This document shows positions 44,453-51,634 of a stretch of 64,000 nucleotides of DNA, piece by piece. The notes beneath the pieces were generated by a model. That model was not told where the DNA came from. It made no database searches and saw only the letters and a program-made list of their open reading frames with translations. Position 1 is the stretch's first letter; every line of letters begins with the position of its first letter. Origin of the DNA: Deltaproteobacteria bacterium (GTDB lineage Bacteria; Myxococcota_A; Polyangia; HGW-17; JAJRWW01); contig JAOZUO010000011.1 in the NCBI GenBank assembly GCA_029938605.1, forward strand, positions 17,474 to 81,473, given 5' to 3'. Both the position numbers and the translations under genes were made by a program.

Positions 44453-45649
44453 CTACCGGCTACGGCGACGGAAGCTCAGGGGGAAATGGTAGGTGCCCGA
44501 CACGCCCACGTACCAGGCGATGCCGGTGTTCTCGCCAGCGGGAATGTCGCCGCAGATGTCTCCATCACAATACGAAGTGGGGACCAGCTTGTAGATACGG
44601 CCCAGGACGCCCATGGAGAAGATCCGGCTGAAGAAGTAGTCCACGCCCATACCCGCCGAGATGGCGGGACCCGAGATCGAGAGGTTCGTGTCGTAGCCGC
44701 TCATGTCGGTATAGTTCTGCGAGATGGAGCCATAGCCAACGCCAAAGCTACCCCAGACATCCAGCCGGCCCAAGGGGATGAAACCACGAGCCTCCACCAC
44801 ACCTACAGCCCAAAGGAGGGCTCCGGAGTCGTAATAGTCGGCGTTGGAACCCACCACCGAAACCCCACCATGAACGCCGATGGCGAAGAAGGGGAAGATA
44901 CGCCACAGGGCCGTGAAGTATCCACCGAAGCCCGTCGCCGTGTCAGATACGTATCCGTCGGCCGAGGCGAAGGCCGACGGTCCAAAGTCCACCGACAAAA
45001 TCAGGCTGCGACGGTGCGGGCCGCCCCGACTTTTGATGCCTTGGGGCGGGGGCGGAGCGCCGCCACCACCGCCGCCATACACACCACCGGTGGTGCCGCC
45101 ACCGGGAGGAGGCGGCACAGCATAGGGATCGGGACCGGGCAGGGGATCCCCAGCCATAGCGCCCGGAGTCCCTGCACCCGGGGTCGTGCCCCCAGGCGGG
45201 GGCGGGACGGTACCACCCGAGGTGCCCGAGCCCGGCACAGGTCTGGGATCACCACCCGGCGTGGTCCCGGCTGAGGCCGCCAGCTGCTTCCAGCTGCCGA
45301 TCTTCGTCCGTACGTCCGCCACCGACGGATGCTTGGGGCTCATGGAGTGCTTGGAATGGTTCTTGATGTACTTCTCAAGGTAGTAGATGCCCTTGTTGTA
45401 GTCGCGCAACGCCGAGTAACAGTTGGCAATTCCGTAGTCCAGGATGGGATGGTACTTGAGGTCCTTGACCTCGTCGAAGGCCCGGATGGCCTCCTGGTAC
45501 TTGCCCTGGCGATAGAGGGTTCTGGCCTTCTTGAACGCGGCCGCGATCTGCTTCGTCTTGGCCGGAGCGGCCTCCGCCGCCGAGGACCAGGCGCTGCTTA
45601 ATAACAAAGCGCCCGCAAAAACTACTGCTAGTGGTCGTGTCAAACGCAT
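44453..45649 (-). CDS. TPR / Pro-Gly-rich linker / outer-membrane beta-barrel-like protein
   Basis: MRLTRPLAVVFAGALLLSSAWSSAAEAA signal; TPR-like ARTLYRQGKYQEAIRAFDEVKDL; GGGTTGGVYGGGGGGAPPPPQG linker; C-term barrel-like with terminal ..SGTYHFPLSFRRRSR. Confidence 0.7.
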   Translation of the reverse strand: MRLTRPLAVVFAGALLLSSAWSSAAEAAPAKTKQIAAAFKKARTLYRQGKYQEAIRAFDEVKDLKYHPILDYGIANCYSALRDYNKGIYYLEKYIKNHSKHSMSPKHPSVADVRTKIGSWKQLAASAGTTPGGDPRPVPGSGTSGGTVPPPPGGTTPGAGTPGAMAGDPLPGPDPYAVPPPPGGGTTGGVYGGGGGGAPPPPQGIKSRGGPHRRSLILSVDFGPSAFASADGYVSDTATGFGGYFTALWRIFPFFAIGVHGGVSVVGSNADYYDSGALLWAVGVVEARGFIPLGRLDVWGSFGVGYGSISQNYTDMSGYDTNLSISGPAISAGMGVDYFFSRIFSMGVLGRIYKLVPTSYCDGDICGDIPAGENTGIAWYVGVSGTYHFPLSFRRRSR

Positions 45650-45897
45650 CGACTTCTCCTTATGACCTCTGTACATCGTGTTTTTCAAACGCGGCTCACG
45701 CCCCAGAGTTTACGCAAATAACGACAATACCTTGCCGCGCTTCCAAGAAAACCTGGATCGAGCCCACGCTTTGTACGCAAGGCCACAAAAATGACCTTCG
45801 GTGCACCGGGCGTGTATGTTGGACGGAAAGATAGCACCGAAGCTTCACCCTGTCCAAGAGTGCATGGCTACGGTGCCAGGGAGGGAGGGGGGAGAAG

Positions 45898-47772
45898 CTA
45901 CATGCCCATGCCCATGCCGCGCCGACGCATGTGGCGACGCACGCGCATGCCGCGCACGCCCATGTGACCGCGCATGTGCATGCTGCGTAAGCGCTTGCCG
46001 AAACGCATGCCGCGCACACCGCGCGGACCCCCCATGACGCGCACGTCGCGACGGCCCATGACGCGCACGCCACGGGGGTGCATGCCACGCAGGCCATGCG
46101 GACCCATCACGCGCACACCGCGGGGGTGCATACCGCGCAGGCCGCGGGGGTGCATGCCCGGGCGCATACCACGACGCCAACGACGACGCATCTGGCGCAT
46201 TTTTTTCCGGTAGGAGGGGCGCTTGGCCCAACGAGCGCGACGCTTCAGGGAGTACTTTTTCCAGACTTTTCGCTTGGTCGCGGCGCGCTTCCAGCGCTTG
46301 GCCCGACGCTCCTGCCACTTTTTGTTCTGGAACCAGTTCTTGTTGCGCCGCCGCACGAAGTTCCCCTCAAGCTTACGCCGCTTGCCACGGTACATGGGGC
46401 GCCGGTACACAGGACGCTTAAAACCCTCGATGACGATACGCTGGCGCCGTAGCCTCCGACGCAGCCGAAGCTTGGCGTAGAACTTGGGAACCTCAACCTT
46501 GAGCTTGGGAGCCAGGATCCGCCCCTCGGCACTGTGGAGGTAGTAGGCCCGGCGATGCCGGCGGACCCGCTTCCGCTGCCGGAGCCGGCGCTTGTATCGC
46601 CGCATCCGCCACTTGGCCCGCCGCTTGGCGACGCGCTCGTAGTCCTTGAGCACCGCGGCCCTCACGTCGGGCTTGGTCTTGTAGACCCCGCCCTCGATGC
46701 GCCCGGCCAGCAGGCCCAGCAGGTAGGCGTGGGCGTAGCGTCGACCGTGGGTGAGCCGAAGCTGTTGCCGCACAGCCGCCTGGGTATTCAGGTGCACCGC
46801 CAGTTTGGGCTGGAGCTTCTTGTACTCGGCGGGCTTGTTGGCCTTCTCGGCGGCGGTGACCTGGTTCTCCAGTTCCTCGCTCGCCTTGCTCTCCTTGTCC
46901 TCGGCGGTCTCGAGGGTGTTGGCGTCGTTGTTGAGCTGCTCCACAGCGCCCGAGTGCATTTTGGCGATGTCAGCGGCCTTCTTCACCGCGGCCTGCCCCT
47001 CGGCCTCGAGCCATTCATCCCAGCCCGCCTTCTCGGGGGAGTACACCGCCGCAGGCGCAGTCACCTTGCCCGCAGGCACGATCACCACTTTGCCAGCCGG
47101 CAGCAACAAGGGCTTGGCGTCCATCTTGGCCACCGCGGTCACGGCAACCTTGCCCTCTTCCACGGCCACCCGGACGTTGCCCGAAAGGGACACACCCACT
47201 GCCAACACGGTGCCCTGCACGGCCACGGCCGCGCTGGGCGTGTAGATGGAGAATGCGCCCTGGCCCTCGGTGCGCTCATTGATATCAAACCGAGCCGCAC
47301 CCGCCATGACGGTGACCGACGGCGACGGGTTCTTGATGGCCGCCGAGGTGTTGAGGGTGATCGCCGACTCAGGGGTGAGCTCCACCGAGGAGTTGTCCCA
47401 CAGGGCCAACGTCGCCTCGCCATCCTTGCCCGCGCGCACAGAGTCCTTCGCGAAAACCTTGGTGTCATCGGCCGCGGCCTTGAACTCCGACTCGCCGGCC
47501 CGACGGACCTCTACGGCCCCCTTCACTCCAGAGAGCACACCCTCGGGCACGGCCTCTTTGTCCACGGGGAGCTTGGGCTCCACGTCGGCGACGGGACGCT
47601 TGTCCGGATCGGCGACGGGACGCTTGTCAGCCGTGACGTCACCCCCAGCCTTCATGTCCGCGGCCTGCATCTCACCGGCGGGATCCGCCTTCTTCTCCGC
47701 GGGCTTTTTCTTGCAGCCGACCGCTCCGGCCAGCAACAGCACCGCAGCACACCCAATTGCAAATGTTCTCAT
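45898..47772 (-). CDS. FecR-domain-like lipoprotein with very basic Arg/Met/His-rich C-terminus
   Basis: MRTFAIGCAAVLLLAGAVGCKKK lipobox; FecR-like VFAKDSVRAGKDGEATLALWDNSSVELTPESAITLN..; C-term RGMHPRGVRVMGPHGLRGMHPRGVRVMG. Confidence 0.75.
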   Translation of the reverse strand: MRTFAIGCAAVLLLAGAVGCKKKPAEKKADPAGEMQAADMKAGGDVTADKRPVADPDKRPVADVEPKLPVDKEAVPEGVLSGVKGAVEVRRAGESEFKAAADDTKVFAKDSVRAGKDGEATLALWDNSSVELTPESAITLNTSAAIKNPSPSVTVMAGAARFDINERTEGQGAFSIYTPSAAVAVQGTVLAVGVSLSGNVRVAVEEGKVAVTAVAKMDAKPLLLPAGKVVIVPAGKVTAPAAVYSPEKAGWDEWLEAEGQAAVKKAADIAKMHSGAVEQLNNDANTLETAEDKESKASEELENQVTAAEKANKPAEYKKLQPKLAVHLNTQAAVRQQLRLTHGRRYAHAYLLGLLAGRIEGGVYKTKPDVRAAVLKDYERVAKRRAKWRMRRYKRRLRQRKRVRRHRRAYYLHSAEGRILAPKLKVEVPKFYAKLRLRRRLRRQRIVIEGFKRPVYRRPMYRGKRRKLEGNFVRRRNKNWFQNKKWQERRAKRWKRAATKRKVWKKYSLKRRARWAKRPSYRKKMRQMRRRWRRGMRPGMHPRGLRGMHPRGVRVMGPHGLRGMHPRGVRVMGRRDVRVMGGPRGVRGMRFGKRLRSMHMRGHMGVRGMRVRRHMRRRGMGMGM

Positions 47773-47906
47773 CTGTGTTCTCCTCGGCCCGAAAGGGGCT
47801 CTGCCAGGATACATATCAGACAATCTTTGCCCATACAACGAGCATAACAACCAGTAATCCCCCCGGATACGTGGATTATTACCAGGAGTTCCCCACTAGC
47901 GAACAA

Positions 47907-48049
47907 AAACAGCGCTACATTGGGGGTGAGACAAGCGGTAGCCAAGGACGAGGCGAGGAGCGAGCGGAGCGTACTTCAGTACGTGAGCACGCACCGCAGC
48001 CGAGGACGCAGGATCCCGCGCAGGATCGCCTCCAAGGTGGCGCTGTTTA
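47907..48049. repeat. Palindromic repeat element, copy C
   Basis: Outer arms aaacagcgctacattggggg / cctccaaggtggcgctgttt; core gcgtacttcagtacgtgagcacgc. Confidence 0.7.
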
Positions 48050-50593
48050 GCGGTATTTGCGCGGGACGATGTAGGCGAAGCTCGTGGTGCTCCGGCGCTT
48101 GAAGACCATGATCTCCAGGGCCCCGCCCTTGCAGCCCGACGGGATGTAGGCCTGGAGCTTGCTCTTGGAGATCTTCTTGAGCACCAACTCCACGCGCCCG
48201 TATCGACGGTGGTTCACCCACATCTTCTGGATCCGGTCCAGGTTTCTCCCGGTGATGGTGATCCACTTCTTGGGAGGCCCCCGGTCCGGAAACACGTCCA
48301 CGATGCGCGCCTTGGGCTTGACGACCTTGAAGGCCGTGGCCGACCGGCCGACCTTGCCGAAGCACCGCACCTCCACCTTGCCCGAATAAGCCCGCTTGGG
48401 CACCCGCGCCTTGATGGTGGTCCGGTCCATGCGCAACAGGTCGTAACTTACCCGCTTGCCGAACCGCACCACGGGCTTTTTGCAAAAGTTCTTGCCGCGG
48501 ATGGTGATGTAGTCTCCCCACCAGCCTCGACGGGGCGTGAGGCGGGAGATGACCGGGGTGGCGAAGGAGAGCTTGAACCGATGATTCGTCACCGACCGAC
48601 GCCCTCGAGACAAGACGACGATCTTGCCCGTGGACGCCCGCCTCGGCACCTTCACGCGCACCTCTACGCCGCTCATTCGGCGCACCTGGGTGAAGGGCAT
48701 GTTCCCCAGCCAGAACCGGTCGCCCTTACGGAAGTTCCTGCCGGTCAAGGTGATCCACGTGCCCCAGGGTCCGGCCTTGGGGTAGATGGAGGTGATCTGC
48801 GCGAAGGGCGCCACAATGCGCAATCGCCCCGCGACCCGCACCTTGTGGTTGTGGCACTTGACTACAAACACGCCGCCCTTGCTGCCGCGAGGAACGGTGA
48901 TCTCGATGGATCTGCTCGTGGAGTTGACCACCGGCACCACCTTACCGCCCAGCCGCACGATGGGGCCATCGCAAATCTTGTTCCCCTTGAGGGTAACCAC
49001 CTCGTTGAACCAGGCCACCTTGGGCCCAAACCCCCGCAGCGTGGGCTTGGGCCACCCCACGACGATGCGGAAGCGAGTGCGGGTTCGTCGCCCAAAGCTC
49101 TCGTGAACAAGCTGCCCGGTCTTCGCGTTCCGAGGGAGGGTCAGCGACACCCGCGTGGCGTTCTCGTAGGCCGCCGGTAGCCGCACCCGGCCCAGGAAAA
49201 ACTTGTCCGCCGGACGCAGGTTGAACCCGGTGACGATCAGCTGCGATCCCGGCGGGCCCATGCGCGGCGTTACCCCGCTCACTCCGGCCTTGGGTGCCTG
49301 GAGTCGAAGCTTTCGTGGGGAGGAGGCACGCCACTTCAGACAGCGAACGGTAAACTTGGCCGCCGTGGCTCCCCGGGGCACCTGCACCACCAGGCGGCTG
49401 TTGCTCTCGCGCCGGATCACCGGAAGACGCCGTCCCCCCAGCCACACCTTCACCATGGGACAGAAGTTCCGCCCCTGGAGGGTGACGTACTGACCAAACC
49501 AGGCCGCGGCAGGTCGGAAGCCGGTGATCACCGGTGGCCGATAGATCCTGTAGCGGAAGGAGGACATGAAACGCTTGCCAAAGCTCTGGAAGTAAATCTT
49601 CGCCATGCGCGCACCCGCCGGGATGAAGACCTTCACCTCCCGGGAGGAGACGAACTTTTTACGCAGGGTGCGGTTGCCCAGCCAGAAGCGAGACTTGGGA
49701 GTGAACCCCACCCCCACCACGGTGATCCAACGACGGGCAGGACCGGCGGCCGGGGAGATCCCCCGGATCTCGGCAAAGGGCGGTTCCACCAGAAACTCGT
49801 CGGCGTGGGTGACCCGCTTGCCGAAGCACTCCACCTCGAAGCGCCCCGTTCGCATTCCCTTGCGCAACTTGACTACGACCTGCCTGTTGCCCCTCCGGTG
49901 GACCACCGGTACCGCCTGACCATCCAGGTACACCTTGGCCCGCGGACAGAAGGACACTCCCTTCAAGGTCACGCGGTCCCCGAAATAGCCCTTCCGCGGA
50001 GAGAAGCTCTGGAGCACAGGGTAGTTGGCGAGCTTGAAGACAAATCGGGTGCGGAGCTTCCGCTTGGCAGGGGCCCAGAATAGCCGCCCAGACTTGAGGC
50101 TCTTGTGAATCAACAGCTTGTAGGTGGTCGAGTTCACATGCTGGCGACGCACTCGACTCCGGCCGATCCAGAATCGGACGTTTCCGTGGAAATGCACGCC
50201 CTTGACGGTGACCCAGATCCCGGGCGGGCCGCTGGTGGGCAACATCGCCGTCACCATGGGCTTGTTCTTGATCTTGAACCTCATGGGCGATCGAAGCTGC
50301 TTCCCCGCCTGATGTACCTCGAACCAGCCCGACTGCGAGCTCACAGGTACCTTCACCACGATGGCCCGCTTGGTCACGGAAATGGGCTTCACAATGTGGC
50401 CGTTGAAGTAGACCTTCACGGTGCGCCTGTCGAAGCCATAGCCCCGTAGACGCACCTTGGTGCCCCAGGGCCCCACGGCTGGCTTCATGTCAGTGAAGTT
50501 CCATTGGGCGGGAGCACCGCGGGCCGGTTCGGAAAAGGAGAGGCCCGCCGTGACCACGGCGAGGCTCAGAATCACTGCAAATCGTCGGTGCAT
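48047..50593 (-). CDS. Exported protein with about ten IPT/TIG-like repeats
   Basis: Signal peptide; repeats such as GPWGTWITLTGRNFRKGDRFWLGN and RGWWGDYITIRGKNFCKKPVVRFGK. Confidence 0.8.
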   Translation of the reverse strand: MHRRFAVILSLAVVTAGLSFSEPARGAPAQWNFTDMKPAVGPWGTKVRLRGYGFDRRTVKVYFNGHIVKPISVTKRAIVVKVPVSSQSGWFEVHQAGKQLRSPMRFKIKNKPMVTAMLPTSGPPGIWVTVKGVHFHGNVRFWIGRSRVRRQHVNSTTYKLLIHKSLKSGRLFWAPAKRKLRTRFVFKLANYPVLQSFSPRKGYFGDRVTLKGVSFCPRAKVYLDGQAVPVVHRRGNRQVVVKLRKGMRTGRFEVECFGKRVTHADEFLVEPPFAEIRGISPAAGPARRWITVVGVGFTPKSRFWLGNRTLRKKFVSSREVKVFIPAGARMAKIYFQSFGKRFMSSFRYRIYRPPVITGFRPAAAWFGQYVTLQGRNFCPMVKVWLGGRRLPVIRRESNSRLVVQVPRGATAAKFTVRCLKWRASSPRKLRLQAPKAGVSGVTPRMGPPGSQLIVTGFNLRPADKFFLGRVRLPAAYENATRVSLTLPRNAKTGQLVHESFGRRTRTRFRIVVGWPKPTLRGFGPKVAWFNEVVTLKGNKICDGPIVRLGGKVVPVVNSTSRSIEITVPRGSKGGVFVVKCHNHKVRVAGRLRIVAPFAQITSIYPKAGPWGTWITLTGRNFRKGDRFWLGNMPFTQVRRMSGVEVRVKVPRRASTGKIVVLSRGRRSVTNHRFKLSFATPVISRLTPRRGWWGDYITIRGKNFCKKPVVRFGKRVSYDLLRMDRTTIKARVPKRAYSGKVEVRCFGKVGRSATAFKVVKPKARIVDVFPDRGPPKKWITITGRNLDRIQKMWVNHRRYGRVELVLKKISKSKLQAYIPSGCKGGALEIMVFKRRSTTSFAYIVPRKYR

Positions 50594-50734: not shown

Positions 50735-50806
<72 letters not shown>

Positions 50807-50956: not shown

Positions 50957-51634
50957 TCAGGGGTTATATGATTTCAGGGTGCCTTTTCTGGCTCGCCGAT
51001 CTACCTCCGCCCGCAGGTGGTGTAGCATCTGCTCGGATCCCCAAACGATTCCATTATTCAACTTGGATCGGCTGACATGCAGGTCCGGAATGGCCTGCAT
51101 GGTGGTGACGGCCAGGGTCCAGTTCTTTCCCCAGGAGTATAGATTCAGTCGCCCCCAGTAGCTCTTCATGGAACCACGATGCCGCACCCAGGAAAGCTTG
51201 TAGCCGCCGTTGGCCCCCCGGCTCCAGTCGTACCTCACCGCCACCCAGGCGTTGGCTACCGGCCACGGCAAAGACAGGATCACCACCGCCCAGATCTTGT
51301 TCTTTCCACGTTTTCGCACCACCCGGCAGCTCTTCACCTTCGGCATGTAGCCGTCGATGCGCTTGCAGTCCATGAAGGTATCCATGACCTCAGAGGGTTT
51401 GGCGGCGATGAGCAACATGCCCGTGGGCTTCCAGAACTTAGAGGACTTATCCACCCGTGTGACGTGCTTCCAGTTGGCCAGCTTCAGCCGATCGAAGTAG
51501 CTGATCCTGGGGCCCTTGCGAGCACGGGCCTCTGGTGCCAGGGCAAGTCCGGTACCCGCAAGGGCAATAAGGATGGCTATGGTCTTGGTATATCGCACGG
51601 TGGTTTCGACGGGGGTCAAGGGCTTCACATTCAA
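50957..51634 (-). CDS. SRPBCC/START-like exported protein
   Basis: Signal peptide; GMLLIAAKPSEVMDTFMDCKRIDGYMPKVKSCRVV.. resembles START/SRPBCC fold proteins. Confidence 0.6.
   Translation of the reverse strand: MNVKPLTPVETTVRYTKTIAILIALAGTGLALAPEARARKGPRISYFDRLKLANWKHVTRVDKSSKFWKPTGMLLIAAKPSEVMDTFMDCKRIDGYMPKVKSCRVVRKRGKNKIWAVVILSLPWPVANAWVAVRYDWSRGANGGYKLSWVRHRGSMKSYWGRLNLYSWGKNWTLAVTTMQAIPDLHVSRSKLNNGIVWGSEQMLHHLRAEVDRRARKGTLKSYNP

Follow-up and report, generated by a model that had tools for sequence, protein, structure and literature searches.

A predicted FecR-domain lipoprotein family with a conserved polycationic region in one order of Myxococcota

The FecR Lipoprotein Gene and Its Neighbourhood

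The window analysed here is a stretch of 64,000 nucleotides from a Deltaproteobacteria bacterium of the Myxococcota (contig JAOZUO010000011.1), whose genome is designated G000. On its minus strand lies a gene (P0001; 45898..47772) for a FecR-domain lipoprotein of 624 aa, recognized by its open reading frame and translation and by the existence of full-length orthologues. The frame opens with an ATG at 47772 and reads down to 45898, and direct reading of the sequence places a Shine-Dalgarno-like GAGGAG 7 nt 5′ of the ATG (47780..47785, minus strand). Translation and orthologue alignment identify residues 1-20 as a lipoprotein signal peptide (47713..47772, minus strand). The original prediction had described a lipobox-bearing start, which the alignment confirms: the lipobox reads AVGC20-KKK, and Cys20 is invariant in 11/11 orthologues. 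Shortly past the lipobox K23 is likewise invariant in the alignment; the residue at +2 after the cysteine varies among orthologues, and position +7 is Glu26, not Ala. The linker that follows (residues 21-77; 47542..47712, minus strand) begins with KKK, is predicted by AlphaFold2 (AF2) to be disordered, and contains a 24-bp tandem duplication found by repeat search (DKRPVAD x2, 47579-47626). Net charge stays close to zero as far as residue ~312; from there to the C-terminus each block of 26 residues carries +3 to +13, and the overall density is +14.4 per 100 aa.

The gene upstream (48047..50593, minus strand) encodes an exported protein with nine TIG-domain stretches according to a domain search, and a calculated net charge of +145 and pI of 11.9. 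Its charge density, +17.1 per 100 aa, is above that of the FecR protein. This TIG-repeat gene is conserved order-wide, but its position beside the FecR gene is confined to this genus. A tRNA-Cys (gca) gene (50735-50806, minus strand) lies between the TIG gene and a gene at 50957-51634, downstream of rpoC. On the other side, the gene downstream of the FecR gene (44453..45688, minus strand) encodes, by domain search, a TPR protein whose linker is rich in Pro/Gly and whose C-terminus is barrel-like. Genes flanking the FecR gene are shared only within one family, f4, and no operon partner conserved across the order was found. Five f4 genomes carry, directly downstream, a gene for a conserved protein of ~362 aa (L023:11209-12297, L024:7418-8506, and relatives) that has a receiver-like LLVEDE segment and no Pfam match, and in G003 and G057 a secreted trypsin-like protease is encoded downstream. 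Because the neighbours are conserved only within the genus or family, gene context gives no function for the FecR protein.

Architecture of the Folded Body

A FecR-like domain and a helical segment between it and the tail had both been proposed for this protein, and both are supported by profiles and models. The FecR beta domain spans residues 78-235 (47068..47541, minus strand), with AF2 pLDDT values mostly of 75-93. Within it, PF04773 matches residues 110-209 (E 2.3e-13, 50.9 bits against a gathering cut-off of 24), and the FecR profile is matched by 11/11 orthologues. All Foldseek matches with E <0.001 have the FecR fold (4m0h, 4m0n, 6ovk), including 4m0h at E 5.5e-6 and 6ovk at E 1.3e-5. 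AF2 models of two different members place a three-helix domain at residues 251-420 (46513..47022, minus strand; helices 251-264, 266-310, 314-360, and 368-413). At the end of its third helix the alignment (A1) reveals a conserved motif with consensus YLRHHPRGR...VPxFY (residues 410-432; 46477..46545, minus strand), in which Y410, G417, R418, and P429 are invariant.

The two models, a check suggested with the original prediction, share one layout, in which the N-terminal body folds to about residue 440 (~78-440) and most of the remainder is of low confidence. For the protein of the window the model adds a helix at 484-516, with modest confidence. Among 11 family members Pfam gave no convincing domain besides FecR, while a PDB profile search returned coiled-coil noise, one match in the signal region, and a weak match of the FecR region to MtxA (E 0.005). 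The earlier statement that no named family is recognized for it thus stands: FecR is the only part named by Pfam, and NCBIfam scores fall below their cut-offs. The FecR fold is already known; neither the helical domain, motif included, nor the conserved cationic arm is recognized by Pfam or NCBIfam.

The Cationic Region and the Terminal Repeats

The long Arg/Lys-rich tail of the original prediction is present as ~240 Arg/Lys-rich residues after the helices, and region-by-region comparison divides it into two parts of different conservation. The basic region, residues 381-545 (46138..46632, minus strand), begins within the third helix and has a net charge of +68 here. Across 11/11 orthologues its charge is +22 to +86 and that of the FecR part lies between -14 and +1, so that charge separation within the molecule is conserved. 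Y/H/G/R/P/W positions in the basic region are also conserved throughout the family in the alignment. In two close relatives, G008 and G009, the basic region has net charges of +22 (194 residues) and +25 (168 residues), a density of roughly +11 to +15 per 100 aa. The terminal tail is roughly neutral in those two genomes, and tail charge is thus dispensable in them.

Residues 546-624 (45901..46137, minus strand) make up a lineage-specific low-complexity tail with a net charge of +22, predicted by AF2 to be disordered. With low pLDDT used as a stand-in for disorder, values <50 cover residues 503-527 and 531-624 of the window protein and 508-607 of the second model. Conservation is absent from the last ~80 residues, where orthologues carry lineage-differing repeats and net charges of 0 to +41. 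In the window, Tandem Repeats Finder detected 5.2 copies of a 24-bp repeat encoding RGMHPRGVRVMG-type units (46033..46156, minus strand). The region had been said to end in repeats, and the repeats are real; the RGMHPRGVRVMG units occupy residues ~539-580, near and not at the extreme C-terminus. In G001, of the same genus, at least five RGPHMGM-type copies are present in an array that runs off the contig end. The repeat arrays of G008 and G009 are distinguished by a single in-frame segment of 26 residues, a sign of fast in-frame repeat turnover given how closely these two are related. The C-terminal arrays at L024 (G008) and L026 (G009) contain Cys (GPRCKGPHDMSPECMG).

The composition given earlier for the last 100 residues is accurate (18 Met, 7 His, 1 Asp, 0 Glu, 30 Arg, and 1 Lys). 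Across orthologues this stretch contains 0-18 Met and 0-9 His; Met falls to 2 in G003 and G006 and 0 in G057, and His to 0-1 in G004, G002, and G057.

One concern raised with the original prediction was that the tail might be lacking from all orthologues or that a shifted frame might be the coding one. Full-length orthologues keep the order of the parts. In each region, tail included, relatives differ most often at the third codon position, and Arg/Lys richness is retained at a GC3 of only 0.24-0.38 (loci L004 and L007). A frameshift or GC artefact is ruled out by these three observations together. The polycationic region is thus real and apparently under selection, as judged from aligned sequences, and the repeats appear labile.

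Distribution of the Family

When 59 related genomes were searched, near-full-length relatives (30-59% identity) came from 9 members of the order besides this one, along with a contig-end fragment in G010 and, outside the order, one relative in G057 that is full-length by profile. In an order-wide profile search the FecR lipoprotein was found in 11/13 genomes, and in each of the 6/6 genomes of good quality there was one full-length copy. Among 96 genomes the profile gave no further match beyond the FecR part plus, in a few, the following helices, and no plasmid homologue was found. The named-genome collection contained a single relative, from Myxococcota bacterium isolate Dive96_bin2.67, whose matches to window genes are identical to those of the G001 contig. 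By sequence, the FecR lipoprotein is a previously unnamed, putative envelope family that is single-copy across one Myxococcota order.

Charge of Exported Proteins

Many exported proteins encoded in the window are basic, with pI values of 10-12; RpoB and RpoC have values of 5.7 and 6.4. We compared exported proteins in samples of 18-359 kb from several genomes, using a home-made gene caller and a signal-peptide heuristic. Numbers per genome are small, the classifier is crude, and some basic "cytoplasmic" ORFs in GC-rich genomes are probably spurious. A net charge of at least +8 per 100 aa was reached by 18/45 sampled exported proteins of this genome (a fraction of 0.27 among 30 with the window excluded), 5/11 in G001, 5/14 in G003, 15/33 in the AT-rich G004, 4/26 in G007, and 0/16 in G008/G009. 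Two class outgroups had 0/8 (G028) and 0/21 (G032), or 0/29 together. Among cytoplasmic proteins of this genome 15/144 reached the same threshold (Fisher P 1e-5 against the exported proteins, computed with 14/144). For spI-type proteins, the cationic genomes differed from G008/G009 with a P of 0.01 and from the two class outgroups with a P of 2e-6.

Charge of the FecR protein and of the TIG protein co-varies across nine genomes (Spearman rho 0.95), although the P value of this correlation overstates independence because the nine genomes represent only six genera. Such co-variation is expected if both proteins meet the same environment. With MlaD as a further matched control, P was 0.37 over all loci and 0.045 for ORFs <430 aa, a post hoc cut (some longer ORFs were probably mis-picked). 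G004 and G008/G009 were sampled after their FecR and TIG charges had marked them as most and least cationic, and the prediction that exported proteins would be highly cationic in G004 and neutral in G008/G009 was borne out. Exported proteins encoded in the window and in contigs sampled from G000-G009 are polarized by charge, one set being strongly basic and the other strongly acidic; in G008/G009 the basic set is missing. The earlier picture therefore holds for the features of the tail and not for its standing as an isolated oddity, since exported proteins are unusually basic lineage-wide and the neighbouring TIG protein has the higher density of positive charge. Rather than a device for binding copper, the tail is probably one element of an electrostatic adaptation of the envelope across the lineage.

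Charge is also patterned along lipoproteins. For 63 predicted lipoproteins of the order, charge at +2 to +8 correlated with body charge, taken past residue 60 (rho 0.57, P 9e-7), a correlation slightly inflated by the presence of the FecR protein and three orthologues among the data points. Where the start after the cysteine was net positive, 19/20 bodies were basic, compared with 18/43 for other starts. At the sampled loci L053-L131 and L174-L203, Lys/Arg right after the cysteine goes with a basic body, and a net negative start mostly with an acidic one. Several acidic-start lipoproteins carry Cys-rich segments of the CGNG..D..E type and look surface-exposed. The pairing of start and body charge is a possible sorting signature, and it suggests that lipoproteins with Lys starts may face the periplasm. 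In Myxococcus xanthus, Lys at +2 marks many inner-membrane lipoproteins and Ala at +7 those of the extracellular matrix (PMC3222651), a rule that may or may not apply in this order. It is possible, if rather unlikely, that the envelope of the order is electrostatically partitioned, with a basic set of Lys-rich starts (probably periplasmic), an acidic Asp/Glu-rich set (probably at the surface), and a sorting signal that matches body charge; the FecR lipoprotein would then be a single-copy polycationic structural component of the basic compartment.

Possible Roles of the FecR Lipoprotein

Several roles could be proposed for such a protein. That it is a FecR-type anti-sigma factor or signal-transducing regulator is suggested by its fold and by its top structural matches, the anti-sigma regulators 4m0h and 6ovk. 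Its N-terminal lipobox implies a lipid anchor, and hence a protein without a cytoplasmic anti-sigma domain, while the scanned neighbouring genes of the window (TIG, TPR, rpoBC, and others) include no sigma factor or TonB-dependent receptor gene. We reject this role on anatomy (a lipoprotein signal peptide with invariant Cys20, and no cytoplasmic domain and transmembrane segment) and find it barely credible. Copper or other metal coordination through Met and His, raised in the original prediction, draws on the HMGM/GMHP repeats of this species and its genus relative G001. Because these residues and the terminal repeats are lost in most orthologues, metal binding is very unlikely as a function of the family and is rejected on conservation; nor was a copper-resistance gene recognized among the scanned window genes. 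An adhesin-like lipoprotein of the surface or matrix, whose cationic tail reaches outside to bind acidic exopolysaccharide, extracellular DNA, or other cells, is improbable, though polycations would suit extracellular polyanions, Myxococcus has a lipoprotein route to the matrix (PMC3222651), and the FecR part resembles the leptospiral proteins Lsa33 and LipL45 at scores far under their curated cut-offs. The residue at +7 is Glu, not the matrix-associated Ala, and the surface-looking lipoproteins of the order are acidic ones with Asp/Glu starts, whereas the FecR protein belongs to the Lys-start basic class.

The tail might also have become basic by passive electrostatic drift, as a disordered spacer without a specific ligand in a lineage whose exported proteins shifted to high pI, leaving the FecR and helical parts to do the work. 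This, the chief competing reading, is a real possibility that we nevertheless doubt. It would account for the distribution of strongly basic exported proteins (18/45 here and 15/33 in G004 against 0/16 in G008/G009 and 0/29 in the outgroups), for the co-varying charges of the FecR and TIG proteins, and for the freely varying repeats and tail length, and it has a published parallel in a salinity-linked basic shift that is strongest in secreted proteins (PMC6706942). Against it, G008/G009 keep a strongly basic region even though all 16 exported proteins sampled from them stay below +8 per 100 aa, and particular Y/H/G/R/P/W positions are conserved across the family. Retention of the basic region in these neutral genomes, together with its conserved positions, suggests selection on the region itself and favours an arm that binds polyanions over drift.

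Such a polyanion-binding arm, a role already suggested for the tail in the original prediction, is the reading that we tentatively prefer, with a confidence somewhat short of even. The protein would be exported and lipid-anchored, probably on the periplasmic side; the FecR beta and three-helix domains would form a folded body ending in the YxxHHPRGR...PxFY motif, from which a disordered, Arg/Lys-dense arm of roughly 170-210 residues is predicted to project. The arm would most likely hold an envelope polyanion through many weak electrostatic contacts, candidates being lipid A/core phosphates, an anionic periplasmic glycan, and peptidoglycan carboxylates, and these contacts would tether or cross-link envelope layers. 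The amount of charge on the arm may be set by the charge regime of the lineage's exported proteins, and the repeats at its end may be fast-evolving filler. Computation shows the anatomy, the predicted disorder, a basic region that is conserved, Met/His and end repeats that are lost among orthologues, and co-varying charge; side, ligand, and tethering are what we infer beyond that.

The family, present in single copy in a little-studied order of Myxococcota, combines a new three-helix domain with a polycationic arm that is conserved. The charge split of exported proteins is the more surprising observation. Basic and acidic exported sets, co-varying charge of unlinked exported proteins, and lipoprotein start charge that predicts body charge make up a testable pattern. 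If confirmed on whole proteomes, it would allow lipoprotein location to be approached from sequence in bacteria that have been little studied, and would provide a natural series of lineages, with G004 at the extreme and G008/G009 neutral, in which to ask what sets envelope charge.

Comparison With Known Systems

With the FecR/PupR regulators (PDB 6ovk and 4m0h; PF04773) the FecR lipoprotein has in common the FecR beta fold of residues 78-235. Where those regulators have a transmembrane segment and a cytoplasmic anti-sigma domain, it has a lipid anchor; where they have signalling modules, it has a helical domain and a polycationic tail; and no sigma factor gene lies nearby. Leptospiral Lsa33 (NF047849) and LipL45 (NF033165) are also lipoproteins with a FecR-like domain. 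Their sub-threshold matches cover residues 70-218, with E 2.5e-8 and 33.5 bits against a cut-off of 420 for Lsa33, annotated as a "surface adhesin," and E 2.9e-4 and 20 bits against 350 for LipL45, and leave the three-helix domain and cationic tail uncovered. FecR lipoproteins from other families of the class (G016, G025, and G033; loci L045-L047) share the lipobox and FecR domain. After the FecR domain, those at L046 and L047 also have in common with it a WDDW motif and a helical-looking stretch with a low-complexity end. In L045-L047, however, the profile match stops short of HHPRGR...PxFY, and the ends are Gly/His/Val/Pro- or Ala-rich, not polycationic.

For the exported proteins as a whole, the closest parallel is the basic shift in pI of freshwater lineages against their marine relatives, which is linked to salinity and greater in secreted than in cytoplasmic proteins, and in cytoplasmic than in membrane proteins (PMC6706942). 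The shift described here is likewise lineage-wide and stronger in exported than in cytoplasmic proteins. Unlike the freshwater shift, it divides exported proteins into strongly basic and strongly acidic sets.
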